This document shows positions 8,895 through 46,021 of a stretch of DNA of 64,000 nt, one piece after another. This stretch comes from Methylocystis echinoides (GTDB lineage: Bacteria > Pseudomonadota > Alphaproteobacteria > Rhizobiales > Beijerinckiaceae), in the NCBI RefSeq assembly GCF_027923385.1, contig NZ_BSEC01000001.1:2120501-2184500 (forward strand), written 5' to 3'. Under the pieces are notes generated by a model. It was given only the letters and a program-made list of their open reading frames with translations, did no database searches and had not been told where the DNA came from. The position numbers and the translations under genes were made by a program. Every line of letters begins with the position of its first letter. The stretch's first letter is position 1.

Positions 8895-9563
8895 TGAATC
8901 AATCTCCGTGAAAAACGCGCCGCCAGCGCCGAAATGTTCAAGCCAGTCATGACGCTAGGATGCATGTAATATTTCGTCAAACGGGATTGTTATCAGCAGG
9001 ACCAAGTTATCACGATTCCTGAGCGTATGTGACAAATACAGCACATTCAGGTGAGCCCGCGCGGCTCAGCCAGAGGCTCGCGGCAATGGCTCCGCGAAAA
9101 GCGCGTCTTTGGTTGGTGCGACGAGACGGCCTTTCCCGGAAAGGCGGAAGCTCCGTGAAGCCGAGTCGACGGAGAAGGGCTCTGAACGCGTCTATGTGTG
9201 TTCTCTGATAAGCGTGTCCAGCCGAGCTGAAGGCTTGGGGCGGGTCATCGCGACAAGATGTTCTCAGGGCTTCATGGAGTTGGCCTGACCGGCGCGGAGA
9301 CCGCCGACAAGTTGCCGATGGCGTCGATCGTGCCGGAGTGCGGCTGACCGGTCCATAATATCGAGCTGAAGGTGGACGCCTTCGATAATTACAGGTGTGC
9401 TCAAGCAGCATTTTCATCGCCGGTTTGGCCTACGCTCGACAGGCGCGCGTTTTTGAGAATGATTGGAACGCAAAGGCGCGGCCACGCGTTGAGCTAGTTG
9501 CGACTATTATGGAGGGTGCGGCCCGACGAAGTCATAGAAAAATCACATCAAGGGGAGGGAGCC
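8895..9563. other. Intergenic region between the porin and the epoxide/CoM operon
   Basis: About 670 bp between divergent genes, so it should hold both promoters. The half near the porin is AT-richer. The part from about 9060 to 9400 has coding-like composition and short frames on both strands, but no start, ribosome site or recognisable domain; it may be degraded coding DNA. I see no clear operator repeat. Confidence 0.4.
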
Positions 9564-10694
9564 TTGAAAATTGCCGGGCAGGAGATTTTCATTCCGACCA
9601 GCATGGTCGGCAATTACCCTAATCCACGCTGGTGGGACGCATCCTTCGCCAGACAATTTTGCGGAGACCGCGAACCGCCTGACTCATTGAGCCGGGAGGC
9701 GCTCGAAGACGCGATCTGCGCGATCGCGTCGGATCAGGAAAAAGCTGGCCTCGATATTATCTCCGACGGCCGGGTGCACGGCGATAACTACGCCGATACG
9801 GCGGTCTATCATTATTTCCGCCGGCTTGGTTACGATCTCCACGGCGGCCATCTCGGCTTTCCCATCTACAGCCGCCTGCACGCCGGAACGGTTGAGCACG
9901 AGATCAAACGGCGCGGCGCCATCATGGTGGAGCAGGCACGGGCGCTCAAACGCTCGACGCGCAAGCCGACGAAAGTGCAATACACCGGCGTTCAGGTTCT
10001 CGCCCAATGCACCAACGATCTCTATTACAAGAGTTCGCGCGAACGCGCACTCGCCATCGCCAAAGCGATCAACGAGGATATTCGCGAGGTCGACGCGATG
10101 GGCGTCGATTTCATCCAGCTCGATGAATTCACCTGGCCTTATTTCTTCGAGGACTGGGCGATCGAGGCCTTCAACACAGCCGTGGAGGGCGTGCGCAACG
10201 CTCGCGTCGTCGTGCATGTCTGCTGGGGCAACTGGGGCGGAACGCCGGCCTATTACGCCGACGAGACCGGCAAGCCCGGCGAGGTTTACGATCTGACGCG
10301 GCGCAAGGACAACGCCAATGCGCCGGCGGCGACGCGTGCGATCGTGCCCAAGGCTTATGAAGCAAGGATCGACGTTCTCAATCTCGAGAACTGCGGTCGA
10401 CGGGTTGACGACATGTCCGGCCTCGACGCCTTCCGCCAGTTTCCGCTGCCGGACAATGTCGACTTCTGGGCAGGCGTGATCGATGTGAAGAGCACGATCA
10501 CCGAGACCGCGACGCAGGTCGCGGATCGCATCGAGGCGCTGCTGAAAGTCATTCCGCCCGACCGTCTGGGCGTGACGACCGATTGCGGGCTTATCCTCCT
10601 GCAACGCTACATCGCGCAGGACAAGCTGCGGGCCCTCGTCGAGGGCGTCCGCCTCGTGCGCGACCGGTCGCGGCAGGCCGTCGCCGCCGAATAG
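9564..10694 (+). CDS. xecA: MetE-like zinc enzyme, probable epoxyalkane:coenzyme M transferase
   Basis: A 376-residue single-domain protein of the cobalamin-independent methionine synthase superfamily. It is about the size of epoxyalkane:CoM transferase (XecA) and half that of MetE. Thiol-activating zinc ligands are visible as H218-V-C220 and C341 (the HxCxnC pattern), with E275 in LNLENC. The start TTG at 9564 is chosen because AGGGGAGGGAGCC precedes it; upstream in-frame codons give a poor N-terminus. The enzyme would open an epoxide with CoM thiolate to give 2-hydroxyalkyl-CoM in the cytoplasm. Five downstream genes look like a CoM supply route, which decides between this role and a generic methyltransferase. 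Substrate specificity is inferred. Confidence 0.75.
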   Translation: MKIAGQEIFIPTSMVGNYPNPRWWDASFARQFCGDREPPDSLSREALEDAICAIASDQEKAGLDIISDGRVHGDNYADTAVYHYFRRLGYDLHGGHLGFPIYSRLHAGTVEHEIKRRGAIMVEQARALKRSTRKPTKVQYTGVQVLAQCTNDLYYKSSRERALAIAKAINEDIREVDAMGVDFIQLDEFTWPYFFEDWAIEAFNTAVEGVRNARVVVHVCWGNWGGTPAYYADETGKPGEVYDLTRRKDNANAPAATRAIVPKAYEARIDVLNLENCGRRVDDMSGLDAFRQFPLPDNVDFWAGVIDVKSTITETATQVADRIEALLKVIPPDRLGVTTDCGLILLQRYIAQDKLRALVEGVRLVRDRSRQAVAAE

Positions 10695-10750
10695 ACGCGA
10701 TTTAGGCGTGCGGCGCGCATTACGCGCGCCGCCAGCGACGCGAGGCGACG

Positions 10751-10981
10751 ATGCCGGTCTATGTGATGTGCTGTCCGACATGCGGGCGCGCGGCGCGCAC
10801 GCTTGTGCTCGAAGGCTGCAAGACGCCGGGCGAATGGTTCTGTTCGCACTGCGCGACGGCGCATCCGTGGGGGGCGCCGAAGGAAATCGAAAGCCATCCA
10901 TGGGAGAGCGCGCAGAGCGCCGGCTGTCTGTGTTGCGGCCCGGGGCAGGGCGCGCGATTCACCTGCGCGTCGGCCGGATAG
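10751..10981 (+). CDS. Small Cys-rich, probably zinc-binding protein
   Basis: A 76-residue protein starting at an ATG preceded by GAGG. It contains C-C-P-T-C near residues 7-11, F-C-S-H-C near 34-37 and C-L-C-C near 64-67, enough for one or two zinc ribbons. The remainder is rich in Gly, Ala and Trp. It lies 56 bp after the EaCoMT-like gene and 7 bp before the GMC oxidoreductase gene, so it belongs to the operon. I do not recognise the family. Possible roles are metal delivery to the zinc transferase, an electron-transfer or scaffold partner of the oxidoreductase, or regulation. Confidence 0.6.
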   Translation: MPVYVMCCPTCGRAARTLVLEGCKTPGEWFCSHCATAHPWGAPKEIESHPWESAQSAGCLCCGPGQGARFTCASAG

Positions 10982-10988
10982 GAGGCGC

Positions 10989-12590
10989 ATGCCAAGCCCG
11001 GCGTTCGATTACATCATCATTGGCGCGGGCTCCGCGGGTTGCGTTCTGGCGGGCCGGCTGAGCGAAGACCCCGACTGTCGCGTTCTGCTGCTCGAGGCCG
11101 GGGGCGCGCCGGGCGCAGACTGCCGAATTCCGGGCCTCTATGGCCGCCTGCAGGACAGTCCATGCGACTGGGGCGACCGCACCTTGCCGCAGCGGCGGTT
11201 GAACGGGCGCCGCCTCTATCTGCCGCAGGGTCGCGCGCTCGGCGGGTCGAGCATGCTCAATTACATGATCTACATTCGCGGGCATCGCGGCGATTATGAC
11301 GAATGGGCGGCGTCGGGCGCGGCTGGCTGGTCTTACGAAGAGGTGCTGCCCTATTTTTGCAAGTCGGAACGAAACGACCGGCTGCATGATCGCTATCACG
11401 GCGCTGACGGGCCGCTAACCGTTTCCAGCCACCGGCGCAATCCGCTCGTCGAGCGCTATCTCGCCGCGGGATGCGAGATCGGCCTGCCGTTCAATAACGA
11501 TTTCAACGGCGAGACGCAGGAAGGCTGCGGGCCGCTGCAGGCGACGCTGACGGATGGCCTGCGCTGCAGCGCCGCCGACGCCTTCCTGACGCCGGCGCGC
11601 GAGCGGCCCAATCTCTCCATCCGCACGCATGCGCGCGCGACGCGCATTCTGTTCGACGACAGGCGCGCCATTGGCGTCGACTACATCCACTTGGGCGCGG
11701 CGCAAAAGGCCTATGCTGACGCAGAGGTTCTTCTCTGCGCCGGCGCGCTGCGCTCGCCGCAGCTTCTCATGCTCTCCGGCGTCGGCGCCAAAGAAGCGCT
11801 TGCGGCGAAGGACCTCGAGGCGCGATGCGATCTGCCGGGAGTAGGCAGGAATTTGCAGGATCATCTGCACACGCGTGTGCGTAGCGCGATCACGCAGCCG
11901 ATCGCCTTCGCCGCCGGCTCGGATGCCGAGCAGCAAGCGGCGCGCGCGCAATATGAGGCCGACCGAAGCGGCCCGCTCGCTTCCAATTTCCTCGAAGCCG
12001 GCGCCTTCGTCAGCCTTGCGCCGGGCGAGGCGCGGCCCGCCTTGCAGCTTTTCTTTCTCTCGCAGCTCGCGCCGGATTATCCCGAGGCCGGGCCGCCGGA
12101 GCGGCATGGGATCACTCTTACCGCCTATATCAACCGACCGCTGAGCCGGGGCGCCGTGACGCTCGCCTCCGCCGATCCGCTCGACCGTCCGGTCATCGAG
12201 TTCAACGCGCTCGACGCGCCTGACGATCTGCATTGCGCCATCGAGGGCGTGCGCTGGAATCTGCGTCTGCTTTACGCAAGCGCCTTCGACGACATTCGCG
12301 GGGAGGAGATCGCGCCGGGCGTCGCGCATCGCAGCGACGCGGAACTCGAAAGCTTCGTGCGCCGCACGGCCTCGACGACCTGGCATCCCTGCGGAACCTG
12401 CCGCATGGGCGACGACGACATGGCGGTCGTCGACGCCACGCTGCGGGTGCGGGGCGTCGAGCGGCTGCGCGTCATCGACGCCTCGATCATGCCCCGCATC
12501 GTCGGCGGCAACACCAATGCGCCGGTCATCATGATCGCGGAGAAAGCCGCCGACATGATCAGAGGCAGCAACGCGGGCGCTGCGTCATGA
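10989..12590 (+). CDS. GMC-family FAD oxidoreductase (choline dehydrogenase-like)
   Basis: A 533-residue GMC flavoprotein. The FAD Rossmann motif YIIIGAGSAGCVLAGRLSED opens at residue 8; GRALGGSSMLNYMIYIRGH near 80 is GMC signature 1; GALRSPQLLMLSGVG near 250 is signature 2; and TTWHPCGTCRMG near 465 carries the catalytic His. The C-terminal IDASIMPRIVGGNTNAPVIM block closes the FAD site. GMC enzymes oxidise primary or secondary alcohols. In this operon the obvious substrate is 2-hydroxyalkyl-CoM, giving an aldehyde or ketone. It has no signal peptide. GGAGG precedes the ATG, and the stop overlaps the next start as ATGA. Confidence 0.85.
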   Translation: MPSPAFDYIIIGAGSAGCVLAGRLSEDPDCRVLLLEAGGAPGADCRIPGLYGRLQDSPCDWGDRTLPQRRLNGRRLYLPQGRALGGSSMLNYMIYIRGHRGDYDEWAASGAAGWSYEEVLPYFCKSERNDRLHDRYHGADGPLTVSSHRRNPLVERYLAAGCEIGLPFNNDFNGETQEGCGPLQATLTDGLRCSAADAFLTPARERPNLSIRTHARATRILFDDRRAIGVDYIHLGAAQKAYADAEVLLCAGALRSPQLLMLSGVGAKEALAAKDLEARCDLPGVGRNLQDHLHTRVRSAITQPIAFAAGSDAEQQAARAQYEADRSGPLASNFLEAGAFVSLAPGEARPALQLFFLSQLAPDYPEAGPPERHGITLTAYINRPLSRGAVTLASADPLDRPVIEFNALDAPDDLHCAIEGVRWNLRLLYASAFDDIRGEEIAPGVAHRSDAELESFVRRTASTTWHPCGTCRMGDDDMAVVDATLRVRGVERLRVIDASIMPRIVGGNTNAPVIMIAEKAADMIRGSNAGAAS

Positions 12591-13540
12591 CGGCAGCGCC
12601 CATTCACACGCGGGACGACAAGCGCGTCTCGCTGGACGCGCTGGCGGAGATGGTCCCCGACAACGCCGTCGTGGCCGTTGGCGGCGGTCTTTCCTCGCGC
12701 GAGCCGATGGCGCTCATCCGCGCCCTGCTGCGACGCGGCGTCAAAGGCCTCACCGTTGTCGGCTCGGCGCATGGCGTCGATATCGACCTGCTCTGCGCTG
12801 GCGGCGCCGTGTCACGCTGCGCGGAGAGTTATGTCGGCTTCGAGCAGGATTTTGGCCTTGCGCCCAATTATCGCCGTGCGCTGGAATCGGGCGCGGTGGA
12901 GATGCAGGACAATTGTTGCTACACGCTGGTTCAGCAATTGCGCGCCGCCATCCAGGGCCTGCCCTTCCTGCCGATCCGCTCGCTGCGCGGCACGAGCTTC
13001 CCGACGCTGCACCCCGAATACAAGCGCATGATCTGCCCCTTCACGGGCGAGGAGCTTCTCCTCGTTCCCGCGCTCGCGCCGGATGTTGCGCTCATCCACG
13101 TGCAATGTGGCGACGCCCGCGGCAATCTCGCCATCCAGGGCCCGCCCGTCGCGGACATACTGTTTGCCAAAGCCTCGCGCCTCGTATTGGCGACCGTGGA
13201 AAGGATCGTGCCCAGCGCGACGCTGCGGGAGATGCGCGGCGCGCATGTTCCCTATTTTTATGTCGCCGCGCTCGCGGAAGCGCCTCTGGGCGCGCATCCG
13301 ACCGCCTGCTATCCTTTCTACACTTACGACCGCGCGCATCTGGCGCTCTATCACGACGCCGCCCGTCAGGGGCCGCAGGCCTTCGCGGCCCGCTATCTCG
13401 ACGTGTTCGTGACCGGCGCGCCGCGACACGCGGATTATCTCGCACGCATCGGCGGCGACGCGACCCGGGCGCGGCTCGCCTCCTGGCGAGACGGCGACGA
13501 GGCCTGGCGCAATCTCTATCGTGAGGCGGCGCCGGCATGA
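12587..13540 (+). CDS. CoA-transferase family I-like protein, subunit A
   Basis: A 317-residue protein resembling the alpha subunit of glutaconate-type CoA transferases: VSLDALAEMVPDNAVVAVGGG at the start gives the family Gly-rich turn, and LLLVPALAPDVALIHVQCGDARGNLAIQGPP near 150-180 is the typical central block, followed by KASRLVLATVERIV. Such proteins work as A/B pairs that move CoA between carboxylates or, in the IpdAB branch, hydrolyse C-C bonds of CoA thioesters. The partner gene follows with a 4-nt ATGA overlap. The likely substrate is an acid or keto acid derived from the epoxide. Confidence 0.8.
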   Translation: MTAAPIHTRDDKRVSLDALAEMVPDNAVVAVGGGLSSREPMALIRALLRRGVKGLTVVGSAHGVDIDLLCAGGAVSRCAESYVGFEQDFGLAPNYRRALESGAVEMQDNCCYTLVQQLRAAIQGLPFLPIRSLRGTSFPTLHPEYKRMICPFTGEELLLVPALAPDVALIHVQCGDARGNLAIQGPPVADILFAKASRLVLATVERIVPSATLREMRGAHVPYFYVAALAEAPLGAHPTACYPFYTYDRAHLALYHDAARQGPQAFAARYLDVFVTGAPRHADYLARIGGDATRARLASWRDGDEAWRNLYREAAPA

Positions 13541-14400
13541 TCACGCGCTGCACGACCGGCGAGATGATGATTGCGGCGCTCGCGCGCACAATCGCGGATG
13601 GTGATCTCGTGTTTCACGGCTTCGGCTCGCCGCTCGTGCAGCTCGCGCTGCATGTCGCAAAGCGCACGCGCGCGCCGCATATGGTCCTCGTCGCCGGCGC
13701 CACCTATGGCGTCGATCCCACGCCGCCCTTCCTCGCGCCGACCAGCAATGACTGGGTCATGGATCGCGGGGCCGACTGCTGGCTCGATATCGAGGAACTC
13801 TTCGACCTCGCGGCCGCCGGGCGCATGGGGCGGATGTTTCTGTCCGGTCTCCAGATCGACAGATGGGGCAATTGCAATGTCACGGGGCTCGGACGCGGCG
13901 CCATGACGATGAAGCTGCCGGGCGGCGGCGGCGGCGCCAATCTCTCCTGCGATGCACGGCGCGTGACGCTGTGGACCGCCGCCCATCGCGCGCCGCCCGA
14001 CGCCTCTGGCCGACGCCGCTTTCGTCTTGTCGAGGCGTGCGACTTTATTACAAATCTTGGTCATCGCGGCGCCGATGGAACGCCCCGCGCCCGCTACGGC
14101 CATATCGGCGGGGGACCGGATTGGCTCATCACCGAACTCGGCGTCTTCGATTTCGACGCCGAGGGCCATATGCGGCTGACAGCGCGCTACGCGGACGTCA
14201 GCGTGCAGGAGATCGTCGACAATACGGGCTTGCCGCTTCGCATGGCGGATACAATCGACATCGTCGCGCCACCCGACCGGCGAACGGTCGAATTCATCCG
14301 TGCGCTTGATCCTCTGAACGTCCATGCGCGCGAACTGCGCGCGGAAGATGCGTCGCGCAGCTTTGACCTTGCAGACGCAACCGAGAGGGAGAGAGCCTGA
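13537..14400 (+). CDS. CoA-transferase family I-like protein, subunit B
   Basis: A 287-residue partner of the preceding subunit. MFLSGLQIDRWGNCNVTGLG near 105-124 and LPGGGGGANLS near 127-137 are the conserved B-subunit blocks. The loop that usually carries the catalytic Glu of true CoA transferases reads VAGATYGVDP near 51-60 with no Glu visible, so the pair may be a hydrolase or lyase like IpdAB rather than a transferase. This reading comes from an alignment by eye. The gene overlaps its neighbours by 4 nt upstream and 1 nt downstream, indicating strict co-translation. Confidence 0.75.
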   Translation: MITRCTTGEMMIAALARTIADGDLVFHGFGSPLVQLALHVAKRTRAPHMVLVAGATYGVDPTPPFLAPTSNDWVMDRGADCWLDIEELFDLAAAGRMGRMFLSGLQIDRWGNCNVTGLGRGAMTMKLPGGGGGANLSCDARRVTLWTAAHRAPPDASGRRRFRLVEACDFITNLGHRGADGTPRARYGHIGGGPDWLITELGVFDFDAEGHMRLTARYADVSVQEIVDNTGLPLRMADTIDIVAPPDRRTVEFIRALDPLNVHARELRAEDASRSFDLADATERERA

Positions 14401-15305
14401 TGGGCATGGGGCGCCGCTCGACCGTCAATCTGGTTCCGCTGCCCTATCGCGGCGTCAGTGTGCAGCGGCATGACGGGCCGATGACCGAGGCCGCCCTTGT
14501 CGCGCATTTTCTCGGCCGCGAGGCCTATCGGCGCACCGGCTTCGTCGTGCTCTGTGGGCCAGACGGGGGCCGCGCTGTTATCGCCATCGAGGCGGCGGAG
14601 CGTGAGTCGCTGTTTTCGCCCATCACCTCTGTCGAGGTGCTGGCGCTGCCCGACGCCTGCGTCTTCGTGCGGGACCCGGAAACCGATTGCGGCAACCGTT
14701 CCGCGCTCGCCGCGCTCGCGGCGCGACATGGCGTCGGCGCCGACCGCACGCTGATCTGCGAAGGCATGTTTGATCATGTGAATTTCATTCATCGCCCCGA
14801 TCCGTTGAGGATCACGGTGATCGAAGTCGCGCCGCCCGAGCCGCCCAAGCTCTACGAACTCGTTCGTCATGTTCTCAGCTACGCCGATCTGCCGCCGATC
14901 CTTCCGCGGCTCGAGCGCATCGAGCTGCGCGCGCTCGTTTCCGGGCAAAGGCCCCAGGCCTTTCTCGTTCCCTGCCGGTCGGGCGGGCTCGACGATCTCG
15001 GCGCGCCTGTTCACTATCTCGACGAACGCCCGCCGCGGCGCGAAGCGTGGACGCTCATCGGCTGCGAGCGCAGCCTTCAGTTCCATCGACATTATTACGG
15101 CGACGAACCGCCCAGCGTCGAAATGTGTCCGCGCGTCATCGCCGGCCGGCGCGCCACGCCGACGCTGCTGAAATGCTGCCTGCTCGAATTCGATATCGAG
15201 GCAGATGGCGAGGCGGTCATCGTCCCCTGGGGCGCCGACCTGCCGATGATCGAACGCGCGCTGCGTCTGCTCGTGGACAGGAACCGAATGGAGAGCGCTG
15301 CATGA
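14400..15305 (+). CDS. Uncharacterised protein embedded in the CoM operon
   Basis: A 301-residue soluble protein I cannot assign to a named family. It has no signal peptide, membrane helix, P-loop or obvious Rossmann motif. Features that could be catalytic are a His-rich stretch around residues 125-130 (FDHVNFIH), [11 protein letters not shown] near 228, and paired Cys in [15 protein letters not shown] near 260. It is locked between the CoA-transferase B gene (TGATG overlap) and phosphosulfolactate synthase (ATGA overlap), so it almost certainly serves the same pathway. Candidate roles are the decarboxylation or another late step of CoM synthesis, or cleavage of the oxidised CoM adduct. Confidence 0.7.
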
Positions 15306-16186
15306 GTGACCCGAAATCGGGATGGCGCGGCGTGTGGACGCTGGACGCGATGGTCGACCGGCGCATTCGGCGGCCTCGCGCGACCGGCGTAACGATGGTG
15401 ATCGACACCGGGATTGGCCTCTCCGCCATGGCCGACATACTGGAGCTTTCGGGCGATCACATCGACCAGTGGAAATTCGGATTCGGCACTACCGCGCTGA
15501 TGCCGCGCGCGGCGCTGGAGGCGAAGCTCGCCTTGTTGCGCGCGCGCGACATTCTTGCCTATCCCGGCGGCACGCTGCTCGAGGCGGCCGTGGTGCAGGA
15601 ACATTGTCGCGTCTTCATGCAGCGCGCCGCCGAACTCGGATTCAGCGCAGTGGAAATCTCGGAAGGAACCATCGATCTTCCCGCCGAGCGGCGCCGTCGC
15701 ATGATCGATTGCGCGCGTAACGCGGGGCTTACGCCGATCACCGAAGTCGGCCGCAAGGACCCCAAGCGCCAGCCCGACGCGGAAGAGCTTGCGCAACAGA
15801 CTCTGCGCGATCTCGACTGGGGCGCAGCCTTCGTGATCATCGAGGGCAGGGAGAGCGGCCGCAATGTCGGCATTTATGACAGGAGCGGCGACATTCGCGA
15901 GCCGTTTCTGGAGGATATCGTCCGCCTCGTCGGCGACGCGGCCACGCGGCTGATCTGGGAGGCGCCCGAGCGCGCGCAGCAGGCCTGTCTTATCTGCCGC
16001 TTCGGCGCCAATGTCAGCCTCGGCAATATCGCGCCGCATGACTGTCTTGCGCTCGAGGCGTTGCGCTGTGGCCTGAGATTCGAGACCTTCCAGGCGCTCG
16101 CGCAGAATTTGCAGGATGCCGGCATGTGGGACCCGACTCGCATCGAGGGCGGCGTCGAACACGGTCTTGCGGGACGCGCCAAATGA
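15302..16186 (+). CDS. comA: Phosphosulfolactate synthase (ComA/XcbB-like)
   Basis: A 294-residue TIM-barrel protein of the ComA family, which adds sulfite to phosphoenolpyruvate to give phosphosulfolactate, the first committed step of coenzyme M synthesis. Family blocks are visible: [20 protein letters not shown] near 31-50, [12 protein letters not shown] near 57-68, the [12 protein letters not shown] strand near 120, and the [16 protein letters not shown] block near 180. The start codon overlaps the upstream stop (ATGA). Its presence in a bacterium is the strongest single pointer to CoM production and supports the EaCoMT call for the first gene. The fold also occurs in spore sulfolactate pathways, but the neighbours favour CoM. 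Confidence 0.88.
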
Positions 16187-17688
16187 CCGACGCCCGTGCC
16201 GCCGCGCTGGAAATTGGCGAACGTCTGTCACAGGCGCCGTCCGACAGGCTGATTGACGTCGCCTTCTCGCGCGAACTTGGCGCGCAGACGCGGCTGCGGG
16301 AGGCGGTCGGCTGGGTTGATCTCGCGCATACGCTGTCGCTGGTTGAAACGCGCGTCATCCCGCGCGCGGCGGCGCGGAAACTCGTCGCGGCGCTCCTGGA
16401 ATTGCAAGCGGGGCCCGCGCCTCTCACGCCGGAAAATGGCGATCTCTACACCAATCGCGAAGCCTGGCTGACGGAAAGAACGCCCGCAGTCGGCTGGCTC
16501 GGCGCCGGCCGGGCCCGACGCGAGGCGATCACCACCGCCTTCCACCTCACGCTTTGCAGCACGTTGTGCGAATGCGCCATGGCGCTCATCACTACGCTCG
16601 ACGCGCTCGCTGATCTCTCCGCGCGACACAGCGCCAGCCTGATGCCCGATTACACTTATCTTCAGGCGGCGCAGCCGACGACCTTCGGGCATTATGTGCA
16701 GACATTCGCCTGGCCGATCCTGCGCGATCTCGATCGCCTGGCGGCGCTCTATGCGCGGGTCGATCTGTGCCCGGCGGGGCTTGGCGCCTGCAATGGATCG
16801 ACGCTGCCACAGGACCGACATGGACTGGCCCGCCGTCTCGGTTTCAGCGCGCCCGTGCGCCATGCGCGCGACGCCATGTGGCAGGCCGATCTCGGCATGG
16901 AAGCGTGCAGCGTCGCCGTCGCCGCGATCATCAATCTCGATCGGCTGGCGGAGGATCTGATGATATTCGCCAGCGCCGAGTTTGGCTTTGTGCGATTGGC
17001 GGACAGGCACGCGCGCGCCAGCAAGATCATGCCGCAGAAGCGCAACCCCTTCGCGCTCGTCTTTGTGCGCGCGACCGCCAACCGGCTTATTGGCGTACAG
17101 GCCGGCGTCTCCGCCGCCGGTCGCACGCCCTCGGGTCAGATGGACAACCGACTCTTCGTTTATGACGCGGCGCCTGATTGCGTGATGGCGGTGGGCGAGG
17201 CGGCGGCGCTCTTTGCCGAAGTGCTGCGAGGGCTCGAGTTCGACGCGGCCCGCGCCCGCGAGGCGCTCGCCGATCGCGCCGTCTGTGCAAGCGATCTTGC
17301 CGAAGCGCTCACAGGGCAGGGGGGTCTCGACTATCGACGCGCGCATGGCGTCGTCGGCCAACTCGTCACACAACTGGAAATGGACGGGCGCAGGCTCGCA
17401 CAGGCGCGCGTCGATGATCTCGCCGCCATCATGCGGCGCGCAGAGGCGCCTGTGGAGGCCGGAGCGCTGTCCGACATTCTCACCGCCGCGCTCGACCCCG
17501 CCCGCTGCGTCGCGGCGCGGACGGATCACGGCGGCGCGGCGGCGTCGGAGGTCAAGGCGATGGCGGCGGAGCTGACCGCCGCGGCGCAGACGCGGAAGAC
17601 GCATTTTTTCGCCTTGCAGGACCGCCGTCGGCGCGCAATCGCGGCGCTTCTTGCGGAAACTTCTGATTTCATCTCGGGGGGCGCATGA
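16183..17688 (+). CDS. xcbC: Aspartase/fumarase-superfamily lyase, XcbC-like (argininosuccinate-lyase-like)
   Basis: A 501-residue superfamily member. The signature loop [10 protein letters not shown] is at 280-289 with catalytic Ser280, and [15 protein letters not shown] near 164-178 supplies the His-containing region. Argininosuccinate lyase is the nearest general family, but no arginine gene is nearby. In Xanthobacter autotrophicus the corresponding enzyme XcbC1 eliminates phosphate from phosphosulfolactate to form sulfoacrylate. That assignment is transferred here on operon context: it directly follows the ComA homologue with an ATGA overlap. Which of the two lyases in this operon corresponds to XcbC1 would need alignment. 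Confidence 0.78.
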
Positions 17689-19040
17689 CGGGATGGTCCT
17701 TCGGTTCGGCGGTCTATGGGGGCGCCTGGTCGACGCCGCAGATGCGCGCGCTGTTCGACGATGCGGCGCGCACGCGGCGCTGGATCGATCTCCTTGTCGT
17801 TCTGGCCGAGGTCGAAGCCGAACATGGCGTCATTCCCGCCGAGGCGGCGCGTCAGATCACCGATGCCTGCGCCTCGCTCGTCGTCGATGCGGCCTTTCTC
17901 GAGGAATGCCGCGCGGCTTATGAAGCCACCGCCCATTCTACGATGGGGCTCATCGGCGCCGTCGCGCGCCGGGCGGGGCCGCTCGGCGCGCAATGGTTCT
18001 ACTTCGGCGCCACCGTGCAGGACATCGCCGACAGTTGGCTGATGCTTGCGCTCAAGGATGCGCGCGCGCTGCTCATCGCCGATCTCGACCGCGCCATCGC
18101 CGCCTGCGTGATGCAGTGCCGCCGGCATCGTGATACGCTGGCGCCGGGGCGCACCCATGGCCAGCAGGGGTTGCCGATCACTTTCGGATTCAAGGCGGCG
18201 AGCTGGCTCGCCGAGATGCGGCGCCATCGCGCGCGCGTCGATGAAGCAGCCGCCCGCATGGACATCGGCCAACTTGCCGGCGGCGTCGGGACACTTTCCG
18301 CGCTGGGCCCGCGCGCGCTCGACGTGCAGGCGCGTTTCTTCGCGCGCATCGGCCTGCGCGCGCCGGACATGTCATGGACGGCAAGCCGCGACATCCTCGT
18401 CGAATGGGCGCAGCTTCTCACGCTCGTCGCCGGGACGGCGGACCGGATCGGACACGAGATTTACAATCTCCAGCGCGACGAAATCGGTGAAGCGCGCGAG
18501 CCGGCGCTGGCGCAGGGTGTCGGCAGCATCACCATGCCGCACAAGCGTAACCCCGAAACGGCGGAACATATCGGGACGCTCGCGCGGGTCGTTCGCGCCA
18601 ACGCGGCGCTGTTGAGCGAAAGCGTCGTGCATGACCACGAGCGCGACGGGCGCGCGTGGAAGGTCGAATGGCATGCGGTCCCGGAGCTCACCATGGCGGC
18701 GGGCAAGGCGCTCGCGCTATTGGCGGCGCTTCTCGACGGGCTGGAGATCGACGCGGCGCGCATGTGCGCCAATCTGATGGCGAGCGGCGGCTTCGCGCTG
18801 TCGGAGGGACTCATGCTGGCGCTCGCGCCCCATGTTGGCAAGCAGGCCGCGCACAAGATGATTCAGGCGCTCGCCGAAAGGGCGCGGCGCGACGGTCTGT
18901 CCTTCCCGGAGGCGGCGCGGCGTGATGCGGCCATCGTCGCGCAACTCGGGGCCGGAGAGATCGAGCGGCTGCTCGATCCGCGCGCGCAGATCGGGCAATG
19001 TCAGGCGCTCATTGATCGTCTGCTTGGCGCGCAATCATGA
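17685..19040 (+). CDS. xcbD: Aspartase/fumarase-superfamily lyase, XcbD-like (adenylosuccinate-lyase/CMLE-like)
   Basis: A 451-residue second superfamily member, closer to the adenylosuccinate lyase and 3-carboxymuconate cycloisomerase branch: STMGLIGAVARR near 85, FGATVQDIADSW near 108, GRTHGQQGLPITFGFK near 155-170 with the catalytic His, and the signature SITMPHKRNPE at 281-291. In Xanthobacter, XcbD1 belongs to the same superfamily and is thought to act on sulfoacrylate, perhaps adding a thiol donor; that step is not firmly established to my knowledge. The gene is flanked by 4-nt overlaps. There is no purine or protocatechuate context to suggest the usual reactions. Confidence 0.77.
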   Translation: MTGWSFGSAVYGGAWSTPQMRALFDDAARTRRWIDLLVVLAEVEAEHGVIPAEAARQITDACASLVVDAAFLEECRAAYEATAHSTMGLIGAVARRAGPLGAQWFYFGATVQDIADSWLMLALKDARALLIADLDRAIAACVMQCRRHRDTLAPGRTHGQQGLPITFGFKAASWLAEMRRHRARVDEAAARMDIGQLAGGVGTLSALGPRALDVQARFFARIGLRAPDMSWTASRDILVEWAQLLTLVAGTADRIGHEIYNLQRDEIGEAREPALAQGVGSITMPHKRNPETAEHIGTLARVVRANAALLSESVVHDHERDGRAWKVEWHAVPELTMAAGKALALLAALLDGLEIDAARMCANLMASGGFALSEGLMLALAPHVGKQAAHKMIQALAERARRDGLSFPEAARRDAAIVAQLGAGEIERLLDPRAQIGQCQALIDRLLGAQS

Positions 19041-20023
19041 ATAGCTGGGCGCAAAGGCTCGACGCGCTGCCGCGTCTGGGATTGGTGGAGACGCCAACGC
19101 CGCTGGAGCCTTCGCGGCGGCAATCGCGACTGTGGTTCAAGCGCGATGATCTGATTGCGGCGGGCTTCGGCGGCAATAAGGTGCGGGCGCTCGATCTCGT
19201 CGTCGCCGACGCGCGCCGGCTCGGCGCCGATACGCTCGTCACCGGCGCCGGGCCGCTCTCCAATCACGTGCGCGCCACGGCCGCCGTCGCCTCCCTTTCC
19301 GGTCTGGCCTGCCGCGCCGTCTATTGGGGCGCGCCGCCGCAACGCGTGCAGGGCAACCACCGCTTGGCCGCGCTGTTTGGCGCGGAGATCCATTTTACCG
19401 GCGAGAGCGACCGCGCTTCGGTCGACGCCGTTCTCGAACTAAAAGCGCGCGAGACGACTGCGCGCGGCGGAGCGCCCTACATCATTCCGCGCGGCGGCGC
19501 CTGTCCGCTCGCCGCGCTCGCGCATCTTCGCGCCGTGCAGGAAACGCTGGCGCAATGCGCGGCGCGCGGCGTCGCGCCCGCCTGCGTGGCGATGGCGGTT
19601 GGCGGCGGCGCGACGCTCGCGGGATGGTGGCTCGGCGCCGCGTTGCTTGGCGCGTCCTGGCGCATCGACGCTTTCTCGGTCAGTCGGCCGGCGGCGGAAG
19701 CGCGGATGCGCGCGCGCCGCCTCGCACAGGAGGCGGCTGACATCATTGGCGCGCGGGCGCCGCTCGATGACGTGGAATTATGTCTCTTCGACGATGTGAT
19801 CGGCGCCGGCTATGGCTTGCCGTCGCAAGAAGGGGGGCAGGCGATCCGCGAGATGGCGCGCGCGGAATCCATCCTGCTCGATCCCATTTATACCGGAAAG
19901 GCCATGGCCGGCTGGCTCGCCCGGCGCGCGCATGGCGAGCACGCGGCGCGCGGCGACAGTCTCTTTCTGCATACGGGGGGCGCGCCGGCGCTGTTCACCG
20001 ACGCCGCGCAGGAGGACGCATGA
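19037..20023 (+). CDS. xcbE: PLP-dependent D-cysteine-desulfhydrase-like enzyme (XcbE-like)
   Basis: A 328-residue fold-type II PLP enzyme of the D-cysteine desulfhydrase/ACC deaminase family. The cofactor lysine is Lys48 in GFGGNKVRALDL; GAGPLSNHVRATAAVA near 73-88 is the substrate/PLP loop; the Gly-rich phosphate-binding segment AVGGGATLAGWWLGA lies near 191; and LDPIYTGKAMAGW near 278 is typical of the family. XcbE1 of the Xanthobacter CoM operon has the same family assignment and would release or transfer sulfur to finish the thiol. The gene overlaps both neighbours by 4 nt. Reaction details are inferred from that precedent. Confidence 0.8.
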   Translation: MNSWAQRLDALPRLGLVETPTPLEPSRRQSRLWFKRDDLIAAGFGGNKVRALDLVVADARRLGADTLVTGAGPLSNHVRATAAVASLSGLACRAVYWGAPPQRVQGNHRLAALFGAEIHFTGESDRASVDAVLELKARETTARGGAPYIIPRGGACPLAALAHLRAVQETLAQCAARGVAPACVAMAVGGGATLAGWWLGAALLGASWRIDAFSVSRPAAEARMRARRLAQEAADIIGARAPLDDVELCLFDDVIGAGYGLPSQEGGQAIREMARAESILLDPIYTGKAMAGWLARRAHGEHAARGDSLFLHTGGAPALFTDAAQEDA

Positions 20024-22083
20024 GCGACTGGGCCACGGCGCTGTTCGATCCCGCCCGGGTCGCCATCATTGGCGCGTCGGCGACGACCGGCAAGGTCGGC
20101 GAGGTCTTCCTGCAAAATCTGAAGCGTGATTTCCGCGGCGAAATCGTCGCGATTCATCCATCTGCGAAGGAGCTTCTCGGCGTCGCTTGCTTTCCCTCTC
20201 TCGCCGATGCGCCGGCGCCGGTCGATCTCGCCGTCATTGTGACGCCGCCGGCCGCGCTGTCGGGCCTCGTCGCGGATTGCGGCGCGGCAGGCGTCCCCGT
20301 CGCCGTGGTCATCACTGGCGGCTTCGCCGAGACAGGGCCGGCAGGCGCGACGCTGCAGGCCAGTGTTGTGGCGGCGGCGCGGGACAAGGGCGTCCGCATC
20401 GTCGGGCCGAACTGCTTCGGCGTCGTCAGCACGAGCTGCGGGCTCAACGCCTCGCTCGCCGTCGGCACGCCACGCAGAGGCGGCGTAGCGCTGATCAGCC
20501 AGAGCGGCGCCTATGGCATGGCCGCCTATGCGCGCGCGAGCGAGGAGGCGACGGGCTTCTCGCGCATCGTCGCGCTGGGCAACAAGGCCGATGTCGACGA
20601 ATCCGATATCCTCGCGTTTCTTGGTCGAGATCCGCAGACGCGGGTGGTCGCCATGCTGCTCGAGTCGATCGTCGACGGGCGGCGCCTGTTCGAGACGCTG
20701 GCGGCGGTTGCGCGGATCAAACCGGTCGTCGTGCTGAAGACCGGGCGGCATGCGGCCGCAAAGCGCGCGGCGGCAAGCCACACCGCCGCCCTCGCAACCG
20801 ACGCTGCAATCGTCGACGCCGCCTTGCGGCAGGCTGGCGCGCATGTCGTCGAGGACGGTCTCACGCTGCTCGACGTCGCCGCCGCGCTCGACTGTCAACC
20901 GCCGCTGCAGGGAAGGCGCGTCGCGATCGTCACCAATTCCGGCGGAACGGGCGTCGAATTGACGGATCTCCTCGAAGCGGGCGGCCTCGAGGTCCCTGAA
21001 TTGTCCGGGTCCCTTCAGGCGCGGCTGCGCGAATTGCTGCCGGCGCATGGTTCGCCAGCCAATCCCGTTGACGTCACGACCGACTGGCCGCGCTTTCCAA
21101 CGATGTATGGCGGCGCGGTCGAGGCGCTGATGACAAGCGGCGAGGTGGACGCGGTTGTCCCCGTCCTGCTCCAGCGTTCGGCGATGATCCCGGAGGTCGG
21201 CGCGGCCATCGTCGACGCGCAGACGCGCGCCCGCGCGGCGGGATCGACGACGCCGCTGCATGTCTGCTGGGTCGCGCCGCGCGCGGCCGAGGACAACCGC
21301 GTCCGCCTGCTCGAGGCCGGCGTTCCCTGCCATCCATGGCCGGCGCGCGCGGCGCGGGTTCTGTCAGCGCTGCACGCCAGTCCGGCGGCGGAGACGCCGC
21401 CAACGCCGGAGGCGTCGCCCCGCCCGCCGCTCGCTCCCGGCTGGGCGCCGGCAGAGGCAGTGTTTTCGCTCCTCGCCGACGCCGGCTTCCCGGTGAGCGC
21501 CTTCAATATGGCGACTGACGCCAAAGACGCCTGCGCGAAAGCCCGCGCTATTGGCTTTCCCGTCGCCCTGAAGGCGGAGCGCGCGGGGCTCCTGCACAAG
21601 AGCGACGCCGGCGCCGTTCGGCTTCATCTCGCCGACGCCGGGGCCGTGGAGACGGCCTTCCGCGATTTCGTCCGCACGCTCGGACCCGGCCCGGCGCTCG
21701 TGCAGAAGCAGGCGGCGGCCGGCCTGGAATTGATGCTCGGCGGCCGCCGTGATCCCGCCTTCGGCCCGGTCGTGATGGTCGGGCTCGGCGGCGTATGGGT
21801 GGAAGCTCTGAAGGATGTGGCGCTGCGACTCGCCCCGATTGGCGCCGGGGAGGCGGCCGCGATGCTCGACGAGCTGAAAGGCCGACAGCTTCTCGCGGGC
21901 TATCGCGGCGCCCCGGCGCTCGACATTCGGGCGTTTGCGCAGCTTCTCGCCGATGTCTCGGCCTGGTTCGCCAGCGCAGAGTGGCTGGCCGAAATGGATG
22001 TGAACCCGCTTATTGCGAATAGCGGCAGCTTCACAATTGTGGATGCACGCATGCTCATTGGTCTCCCGCTCGTACAGCCCTGA
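20020..22083 (+). CDS. ADP-forming acyl-CoA synthetase (NDP-forming, fused subunits)
   Basis: A 687-residue fusion of the two acetyl-CoA synthetase (ADP-forming) subunits. The N-terminal CoA-binding domain starts DPARVAIIGASATTGKVGEV. The succinyl-CoA-synthetase-like ligase part contains the phospho-His candidate in ASHTAALATDAAIVDAAL near 248. A linker of Pro/Ala near 475-490 leads to an ATP-grasp domain with PVALKAERAGLLHKSDAGAV near 515-534 and the terminal EMDVNPLI metal motif. The enzyme interconverts an acid, CoA and ATP with acyl-CoA, ADP and phosphate. As the last gene of the epoxide/CoM operon it probably activates the carboxylic acid made upstream or conserves energy from the acyl-CoA. 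Confidence 0.85.
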   Translation: MSDWATALFDPARVAIIGASATTGKVGEVFLQNLKRDFRGEIVAIHPSAKELLGVACFPSLADAPAPVDLAVIVTPPAALSGLVADCGAAGVPVAVVITGGFAETGPAGATLQASVVAAARDKGVRIVGPNCFGVVSTSCGLNASLAVGTPRRGGVALISQSGAYGMAAYARASEEATGFSRIVALGNKADVDESDILAFLGRDPQTRVVAMLLESIVDGRRLFETLAAVARIKPVVVLKTGRHAAAKRAAASHTAALATDAAIVDAALRQAGAHVVEDGLTLLDVAAALDCQPPLQGRRVAIVTNSGGTGVELTDLLEAGGLEVPELSGSLQARLRELLPAHGSPANPVDVTTDWPRFPTMYGGAVEALMTSGEVDAVVPVLLQRSAMIPEVGAAIVDAQTRARAAGSTTPLHVCWVAPRAAEDNRVRLLEAGVPCHPWPARAARVLSALHASPAAETPPTPEASPRPPLAPGWAPAEAVFSLLADAGFPVSAFNMATDAKDACAKARAIGFPVALKAERAGLLHKSDAGAVRLHLADAGAVETAFRDFVRTLGPGPALVQKQAAAGLELMLGGRRDPAFGPVVMVGLGGVWVEALKDVALRLAPIGAGEAAAMLDELKGRQLLAGYRGAPALDIRAFAQLLADVSAWFASAEWLAEMDVNPLIANSGSFTIVDARMLIGLPLVQP

Positions 22084-44702: not shown

Positions 44703-45079
44703 CCCTCTCCCTGCGAAGCGGGGAGAGGGTTAGGGTGAGGGGCAAGCAGACACACACATATGTTTCCACATCTCCCCGCCGCCGCCACGCACGGCCTTGC
44801 CCCCTCCCTGTCCCTCCCCCGCTACGCGGGAGAGGGGACGCTCCCGATCAGCAAATCTGATGAAGGCCCGGGCCTACCCCCTCTCCCTGCGAAGCGGGGA
44901 GCGGGTTAGGGTGAGGGGCAAGCGGACATACACAAATGTTTCCACATCTCCCCGCCACCGCCACGCGCGGCCTTGCCCCCTCCCTGTCCCTCCCCCGCTG
45001 CGCGGGAGAGGGGACGCTCGCGATCAGCAAATCTGATGAAGGCCCGGACCTGCCCCCTCTCCCGCGAAGCGGGGGAGGG
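44703..45079. repeat. Tandem repeat, 176-bp period, two copies plus partial third
   Basis: The unit starts at 44703, recurs at 44879 with few changes and again partially at 45055. Each unit contains a CCCTCTCCCTGCGAAGCGGGG hairpin-like element, a GTTTCCACATCTCCCCGCC stretch and an AGCAAATCTGATGAAGGCCC stretch. The second copy contains an ATG in frame with the following gene. Confidence 0.9.
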
Positions 45080-46021
45080 TTGGGGTGGGGGCGCGCGCCG
45101 CTTCTCCTGTCCCTGTTTCTCCTCCTCGCCGCCCCGGCGCTGGCCGAGGAAGCCTTCGTCACCGCGCAGAGCGCCGACGCCGTCAGCGTCGTCGACCTCT
45201 CGGCCATGACGACCGTCGCGACGCTCTCCATCGGCGGCAAGCCGGCGGGCGTCGCCGTCAGCCCGGACGGCGCGCGGGTCTATGTGTCCAGTCCCGACGG
45301 CCAGTTCGTCACCGTGATCGACGCCCGCAAGCGGACGATTGTGAAGAAAATCCCCCTGAAAGGCGCGCCGCTCGGCGTCGCGGCGTCCCCGGACGGCAAG
45401 CGGCTCTACGCCACGCTCGCCTATGACCGGCTGCTGGTCGAGATCGACCCGGAGAGCGGCGCGACCCGCGAGGCGCCGGTGGGCGCCATGGCCTCCGGCG
45501 TGGCGGCGACCCCGGACGGCAGGACGATCCTCGTCGCCGACCGCGACGATAACGCCGTCTCCTTCATCGACGCGGCGACCTTCGCCCGCGTCGCGACGCT
45601 GCCGGTGGGGAAGCACCCCTTCGGCGTCACCATCGACGCCGCCGGCGCCCGCGCCTATACGGCGAATGTCGAATCGGACGACGTCAGCGTCATCGATCTC
45701 GCGGCCCGCAAGGTGGTGGGGACGCTGAAGACCGCAAGCCGCCCCTATACGGTGGCGCTGGCGTCCGGCCGCATCTTCGTGGCCGACCAGCACGCCGACG
45801 CGGTCAGCGTCTTCGATGCGGCAAGCCTTGCGCCGGCCGGCGAGGTCAAGGTGGGGGAATATCCGGAGGGGATCGCCGCGAGCCCCGACGGGACGCGGGT
45901 TTACGTCGCCAACTGGTTTTCCAACGAACTCTGGGCGATCGACGCCAGAACCCTGCAGGTGACCGGCAAGGCGGAGACGGGCGACGGGCCGCGCGCCTTT
46001 GGCGCCTTCGTCACCAGATAG
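45080..46021 (+). CDS. YVTN/YncE-like beta-propeller periplasmic protein
   Basis: About 313 residues. After a signal peptide (APLLLSLFLLLAAPALA), seven blades repeat the pattern G-x-x-P-x-G-V/I-A-x-S-P-D-G-x-x-x-Y-V/A, for example SIGGKPAGVAVSPDGARVYV and KVGEYPEGIAASPDGTRVYV, each with a D-A/L-A (x) V or VIDAR strand. This resembles the propeller proteins found beside PQQ-dependent alcohol dehydrogenases. The end is certain. The start is not: the frame runs to an ATG at 44936 inside the tandem repeat, but TTG at 45080 places the signal peptide at the N-terminus and follows GGGGAGGG. Confidence 0.82.
   Translation: MGWGRAPLLLSLFLLLAAPALAEEAFVTAQSADAVSVVDLSAMTTVATLSIGGKPAGVAVSPDGARVYVSSPDGQFVTVIDARKRTIVKKIPLKGAPLGVAASPDGKRLYATLAYDRLLVEIDPESGATREAPVGAMASGVAATPDGRTILVADRDDNAVSFIDAATFARVATLPVGKHPFGVTIDAAGARAYTANVESDDVSVIDLAARKVVGTLKTASRPYTVALASGRIFVADQHADAVSVFDAASLAPAGEVKVGEYPEGIAASPDGTRVYVANWFSNELWAIDARTLQVTGKAETGDGPRAFGAFVTR

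Follow-up and report, generated by a model that had tools for sequence, protein, structure and literature searches.

The stretch analyzed here, referred to as the window, comprises 64,000 nt of the Methylocystis echinoides genome (assembly GCF_027923385.1, contig NZ_BSEC01000001.1, positions 2,120,501 to 2,184,500; internal label C1:2120501-2184500). Window positions 9564 to 22083 are filled by 11 genes on the plus strand that form one operon, combining a predicted epoxyalkane:coenzyme M transferase (EaCoMT) with genes for the biosynthesis of coenzyme M (CoM). Seven of the 10 joints between these genes are 4-nt ATGA overlaps and another is a 1-nt overlap, while 56 and 7 nt separate the genes at the two joints nearest the 5' end, so that the single 12.5-kb run with ATGA overlaps noted in a preliminary description of this DNA is borne out. 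The genes named in that description lie where it placed them and belong, by domain and NCBIfam matches, to the families that it gave, but it overlooked two others—a small zinc-ribbon gene (10751 to 10981) and xcbA (14400 to 15305). All 11 reading frames are intact. Compared to three other Methylocystis loci, each of the 10 operon genes in the codon-position comparison (the set without the zinc ribbon) differs far more at third positions (0.43 to 0.56 of codons) than at first and second positions (0.04 to 0.29), and the operon genes therefore look held by selection.

An operon for epoxide capture and coenzyme M synthesis

The first gene (9564 to 10694, with a TTG start) encodes a protein of the Pfam family Meth_synt_2 that is 75.4% identical to the protein of Xanthobacter autotrophicus Py2 annotated as 2-hydroxypropyl-CoM lyase, compared to 48.5% for Nocardioides JS614, 44.8% for Mycolicibacterium chubuense NBB4, and around 30% for the other matches listed, including those named as methionine synthases. 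Its residues H218-x-C220 and C341, in what we take to be the His-x-Cys...Cys zinc-ligand motif of EaCoMT, are invariant in all four aligned proteins (window, Py2, JS614, and NBB4), and it scores far under the cut-offs of the seven methionine-synthase models that it matches. By identity and zinc-ligand residues, it is thus predicted to be an EaCoMT of the XecA type, in agreement with the EaCoMT-like zinc enzyme proposed in the preliminary description. For comparison, we used the best 80 of 101 EaCoMT loci, fetched as stretches with limited flanks; the nearest named loci to the window operon are those of Methylocystis.

The CoM set comprises XcbA (DUF7714, CoM-biosynthesis-associated; NF052538, score 470.4 versus a cut-off of 150), the phosphosulfolactate synthase ComA/XcbB (15302 to 16186; TIGR03849, 307.6 versus 280), the aspartase/fumarase-superfamily lyase XcbC (16183 to 17688; NF052535, 714.6 versus 575), XcbD of the same superfamily (17685 to 19040; NF052536, 629.1 versus 600), and the pyridoxal phosphate enzyme XcbE of the D-cysteine-desulfhydrase family (19037 to 20023; NF052537, 453.4 versus 450). 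All five exceed their curated NCBIfam cut-offs, XcbE only just, and XcbB, XcbC, XcbD, and XcbE share 65%, 55%, 63%, and 55% identity with their Py2 counterparts, in keeping with the family-level match of four genes to X. autotrophicus xcbB1-E1 seen earlier. The window's ComA/XcbB is the sole ComA match in the genome. The predicted model of XcbA (pLDDT 92.7) gave no clear fold match; the protein has been described as a functional analogue of the JS614-type aldehyde dehydrogenase (PMC11507031). Aldehyde dehydrogenases 65% to 75% like that of JS614 are encoded at the loci L014, L017, L020, L024, L039, L041-L047, L051, L063, and L064, all from gammaproteobacterial methanotrophs, and many of these loci also hold XcbA. 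Taken together, the matches support a predicted EaCoMT and a putatively complete CoM synthesis set in one operon of a methanotroph.

Four PmoA/AmoA-family matches occur in the window genome, two of them with equal score (G000:C1:661762-662463 and G000:C1:1964621-1965322) and two further copies with a different score on contigs C1 and C3. A search for di-iron monooxygenases (Phenol_Hydrox) gave no match in this genome, while the same search finds the Py2 and JS614 plasmid matches. The likely source of epoxides is therefore particulate methane monooxygenase (pMMO), as Toppings et al. argued for Methylohalobius crimeensis (PMC11507031), and the methanotroph host with methane monooxygenase as epoxide source that had been proposed from the window alone fits these results.

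Directly downstream of the EaCoMT gene, the zinc-ribbon gene encodes a Cys-rich protein of 76 amino acids that resembles the unnamed Xaut_4866 of Py2. The Py2 homologue falls short of the cut-offs for Pfam Zn_ribbon_8 (32.1 versus 34.4) and the NCBIfam FmdB zinc ribbon (23.2 versus 31.3), and the window protein scores lower still, but the four-Cys ribbon pattern is present. Proteins of around 60 to 100 amino acids with the pattern CPxC...WxCxxC...CC are encoded beside or near EaCoMT at 56 of 63 XecA-type loci, whereas the same pattern search found none at 23 EtnE-type loci (Fisher p 4e-15, a value that ignores kinship; duplicate L100 dropped). The gene follows EaCoMT in 37 cases, precedes it in 11, and lies 3.4 to 5.3 kb away in 8. 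While the first four Cys and the Trp belonged to the search pattern and are 100% conserved by construction, V19, P26, H48, P49, and the C-terminal Cys pair beyond it are 86% to 100% conserved. Three Burkholderiales loci (L036, L037, and L038) carry two zinc-ribbon genes each, one just after EaCoMT and the second on the opposite strand around 1.35 to 1.45 kb before the EaCoMT end. A role of the protein in delivering metal to XecA-type EaCoMT or in stabilizing it is plausible as a hypothesis only.

GMC dehydrogenase, CoA-transferase-fold pair, and acyl-CoA synthetase

The third gene (10989 to 12590; Pfam GMC_oxred_N/C) encodes a choline-dehydrogenase-like FAD alcohol dehydrogenase of the GMC family. 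Databases contain many relatives of this protein (of 7997 scored, 7512 reach 1e-100), so that it is tied to CoM by co-occurrence and not by its family. A 94%-identical GMC protein is present in another data set (P0001). Among the genomes with a GMC gene at the EaCoMT locus, 9 of 10 have pmoA; the gene is cut by the locus end at L063 and lies in two pieces at L064.

The next two genes encode CoA-transferase-fold subunits A (12587 to 13540; Pfam CoA_trans) and B (13537 to 14400), whose best solved relatives are the two subunits of AibA/AibB, the 3-methylglutaconyl-CoA decarboxylase of Myxococcus xanthus. For subunit A this is 5mzw_A (9.3e-35), named as a glutaconate CoA-transferase family subunit A, which we take from the literature to be AibA; for subunit B it is AibB entries (5n00_B, 6e-28). 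The fold of the CoA-transferase-like pair noted in the preliminary description is therefore confirmed by the Pfam match, but the catalytic Glu of class I (glutaconate-type) CoA-transferases is replaced by Ala53 in subunit B and no Glu is found in the loop (APHMVLVAGATYGVDPTP), with the register to glutaconate CoA-transferase derived by spacing relative to AtoA, in which MAFFT put the Glu one column off (1poi_B is outside the shown alignment). The window motif reads VAGATYG where actinobacterial homologues have VEGATYA, and two Chloroflexota homologues also have Glu. In a tree of 61 subunit B rows, restricted to matches of more than 200 columns and without L100, a single change separates 29 Ala rows from 32 Glu rows (support 99/97).

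In glutaconate CoA-transferase, the residue is Glu54 of subunit B, and the Glu of this region forms an anhydride with CoA, while the hydrolase subunit IpdB has Gly at that site (PMC5380842). AibB similarly has the CoA-transferase fold without the catalytic Glu, but with Cys56 in its place where the window protein has Ala, and an Ala variant of AibB is still active (PMC7756340). AibB Glu72, a proposed proton source, aligns with Asn in the window (PTSND versus PSSED). The proteobacterial pair is therefore probably no classical transferase, and the B subunit in the window may not be a transferase. As a guess, the pair might act as a malonyl-CoA decarboxylase, in line with the older scheme for ethene summarized in PMC8727900.

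The last gene (20020 to 22083; Pfam CoA_binding_2, Succ_CoA_lig, and ATP-grasp_5) encodes an ADP-forming acyl-CoA synthetase of the acetate--CoA ligase type, and since it reaches the cut-off of none of the six NCBIfam models matched, we leave its substrate unassigned.

Reductase and short-chain dehydrogenase genes at related loci

Among 39 Methylocystis genomes searched, EaCoMT is present in five, and the GMC dehydrogenase and the zinc ribbon occur in the same five. A reductase like the 2-ketopropyl-CoM oxidoreductase/carboxylase (2-KPCC) of Py2 is found in four, which are exactly the other EaCoMT carriers and leave out the window genome, and a short-chain dehydrogenase/reductase (SDR) is found in the same four. 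At these loci (L009, L010/L100, L098, and L099), the reductase (63.5% to 64.7% identical to Py2) and the SDR (55% to 58% identical to Py2 XecE) lie beside the operon on an arm divergent from EaCoMT. Neither of these two hallmarks of the Py2-type epoxide carboxylase is found in the window assembly: the Methylocystis reductase has no match there at 1e-30, the best match to Py2 2-KPCC is partial at 32%, and the Methylocystis SDR, the candidate hydroxyalkyl-CoM dehydrogenase, has no match in the genome at 1e-60. The genome does contain four generic disulfide-reductase-like genes. Nucleotide similarity to the relatives (blastn) spans the window from 9510-9582 to 22016-22054 and, except for a dispersed repeat, none was found past these edges; the operon is thus flanked by different DNA in this genome and either arrived or persisted without the divergent arm. 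A 176-bp unit is present in 2.2 copies at window positions 44703 to 45092, perhaps a dispersed repeat, of which around 120 bp (85% to 89%) recur around 1.7 kb beyond the SDR gene of another Methylocystis (L099:17714-17834).

In all, 49 2-KPCC-like rows were aligned, and in 45 of them the site could be read and the identity was at family level. Two residues were read in these rows, His506 and Phe501 by what we take to be the Py2 numbering, and the Py2 protein does bear those residues there; a catalytic dyad of histidine residues is reported in the title of Kofoed et al. (2011). All 45 rows retain Phe501, but position 506 is His in 29 and Tyr in 16. The Tyr506 rows come from Methylocystis and gammaproteobacterial methanotrophs (15 loci within L009-L088), and of the loci included in a pmoA search (50 of the 80), 11 of 13 Tyr loci are positive versus 5 of 18 His loci. 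A rule that carriers of pMMO have Tyr506 is nonetheless ruled out by His506 in L011, L013, L015, L031, and L049. In a tree of 44 rows (without the duplicate L100, two incomplete rows, and two that fall outside the family), the 15 Tyr rows sit at two places, and forcing them together costs 60 log units (approximately unbiased test p 0.001, an optimistic value as the group was defined only once the alignment had been inspected). Tyr506 thus appears to have arisen at least twice, and it points to a changed chemistry, perhaps one without carboxylation.

Proposed pathway, its alternatives, and known relatives

Very probably, the operon makes CoM via XcbA-E and thereby supplies a capture of pMMO-made epoxides by EaCoMT. 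This core is supported by the 75% identity of EaCoMT, the XcbA-E set, the four pmoA-family matches, the co-occurrence of GMC and zinc ribbon, the gene overlaps, the codon pattern, and the induction of the related M. crimeensis cluster by ethylene. In this scheme, pMMO would form epoxides by accident from ambient alkenes, chiefly ethylene, XcbA-E would make CoM, and the predicted EaCoMT would open the epoxides with it, possibly served by the small zinc ribbon—speculatively, for instance, by zinc delivery. The steps after epoxide capture are more tentative. As the only dehydrogenase of the operon, the GMC protein would oxidize 2-hydroxyalkyl-CoM, probably to carboxymethyl-CoM in the case of ethylene; the acyl-CoA synthetase could then activate the resulting acid, and the AibAB-like pair may act on the CoA thioester. 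CoM might be released by another C-S-cleaving enzyme, or it might be spent as a detoxifying thiol and resynthesized. The purpose of the pathway in the window strain is best read as epoxide capture and oxidation for detoxification. The preliminary description had seen a "self-contained epoxide-to-acyl-CoA pathway", but this is unsupported. No gene was found for the step presumed to free CoM, both the 2-KPCC-like reductase and the SDR are absent from the assembly, and the CoA-transferase lacks the Glu of its catalytic loop.

A broader proposal would be a chemically distinct CoM epoxide pathway of methanotrophs that joins five parts: a Tyr506 reductase, swapped at least twice, which suggests that carboxylation of 2-ketopropyl-CoM gave way to the reductive cleavage of a CoM thioether derived from ethylene; a CoA-transferase-fold pair without CoA transfer; a GMC dehydrogenase added in some; an XecA-type EaCoMT dependent on a dedicated zinc-ribbon partner; and a window strain without 2-KPCC that uses another C-S-cleaving enzyme or sacrificial CoM. 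It is unlikely that all of these parts hold jointly.

Several observations weigh against the scheme or parts of it. All four other EaCoMT-bearing Methylocystis keep the reductase and SDR near the operon, and the operon of the window strain may be crippled. A 2-KPCC-like gene is missing from the fetched stretch, with its limited flanks, at 37 of the 80 loci; among these, the gammaproteobacterial methanotroph loci L024, L046, L047, L063, and L064 have a FAD oxidoreductase that is 31% to 37% like that of JS614. The JS614-type FAD oxidoreductase had no match in the window and only partial ones of 23% to 42% among the four 2-KPCC matches of the window genome, a comparison that covered the window and these four proteins, not the whole genome. 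Just 10 of the 80 loci carry the GMC gene, each in a genome that bears a methanotroph name, and at 6 of the 13 Tyr506 loci in this set no GMC gene was seen (two of the six with less than 5 kb downstream); the enzyme is therefore dispensable for the pathway. Five pmoA-positive genomes, L011 (USC-alpha), L013, L015, L031, and L049, retain His506, and the change from His to Tyr takes one base. The zinc ribbon, finally, was not found at 7 of the 63 XecA-type loci, two of them with less than 500 bases downstream.

It is improbable, though the best of the alternatives, that the pathway is complete and its recycling reductase either was missed by the assembly or is encoded by a diverged gene at another site of the genome. 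The four sister genomes carry reductase and SDR, the assembly is not closed (10 contigs, 99.09% completeness), and there are the four generic disulfide-reductase-like genes as well as methanotroph loci that use a different FAD oxidoreductase; yet the contig continues past the operon on both sides, DNA similarity to the relatives ends at window 9510-9582, and the best 2-KPCC match is distant and partial with the Methylocystis protein unmatched. Because methanotroph clusters hold other reductase types, we weighted this explanation up and weighted down a second, now more improbable still, in which the operon is a decaying remnant that has lost its recycling half and whose remainder is on its way out. 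The absence of reductase and SDR from the assembly would fit such decay, as would the single MEDS regulator query that found no match in the window, but the 11 intact frames, the third-position excess in the 10 genes measured, and the 94%-identical GMC in data set P0001 argue otherwise. That CoM serves another purpose and the MetE-like enzyme is a methyltransferase is barely credible: it shares its Pfam family with cobalamin-independent methionine synthase and its closest solved relative is named methionine synthase, but its identity to the Py2 enzyme far exceeds that to the methionine-synthase-named matches listed, it stays far below the cut-offs of the seven such models, and its relatives usually adjoin epoxide or CoM genes (L070, for instance, has none in the fetched stretch).

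The core of an EaCoMT/CoM operon in methanotrophs is already published in kind, and the window is a variant form of it. In a set of 150 methanotroph genomes, Toppings et al. (2024) detected EtnE homologues in 14, including 2 of 16 Methylocystis, with similar neighboring clusters, and found that the homologous cluster of M. crimeensis is upregulated by ethylene (RT-qPCR and proteomics; PMC11507031); CoM-gene clusters of vinyl chloride and propylene degraders are published as well (PMC8727900 and PMC6440738). Like M. crimeensis and 13 other methanotroph genomes, the window strain has EaCoMT, the CoA-transferase pair, the acyl-CoA synthetase, and CoM genes clustered, and like M. crimeensis it would use pMMO as epoxide source without an alkene monooxygenase (PMC11507031). 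The M. crimeensis cluster differs by an SDR, an E3-like enzyme, a dienoyl-CoA-reductase-like enzyme, and a MEDS regulator, none of which was matched in the window, and the GMC gene of the window operon sets it apart in turn; the main text of PMC11507031, figures and supplements aside, makes no mention of GMC, choline dehydrogenase, zinc, ribbon, FmdB, tyrosine, or histidine. The Py2 locus on pXAUT01 shares EaCoMT (75%), XcbB-E (55% to 65%), XcbA (60% to 72%, in two pieces), and the zinc-ribbon gene directly 3' of EaCoMT, but there 2-KPCC and two SDRs adjoin EaCoMT, a monooxygenase lies upstream, and no GMC, CoA-transferase pair, or acyl-CoA synthetase was matched in its 35-kb stretch. The etn clusters of JS614 and NBB4 likewise hold the CoA-transferase pair, acyl-CoA synthetase, EaCoMT, and CoM genes together, but they have an EtnE-type EaCoMT (45% to 48%), Glu in subunit B, an SDR, a FAD oxidoreductase, and an alkene monooxygenase, and no zinc ribbon was found in them. 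New are the association of the zinc ribbon with XecA-type EaCoMT, the co-occurrence of EaCoMT, GMC, and zinc ribbon in Methylocystis, and Tyr506 at 15 methanotroph loci.

The comparison thus yields testable points in the replacement of 2-KPCC, the Tyr506 enzymes, the Glu-less pair, and the zinc-ribbon partner, which, if XecA-type EaCoMT needs it, would matter for producing the enzyme elsewhere. Ethylene inhibits methane oxidation via the epoxide formed from it, and clusters of this kind may, as argued in PMC11507031, decide which methanotrophs tolerate ethylene.

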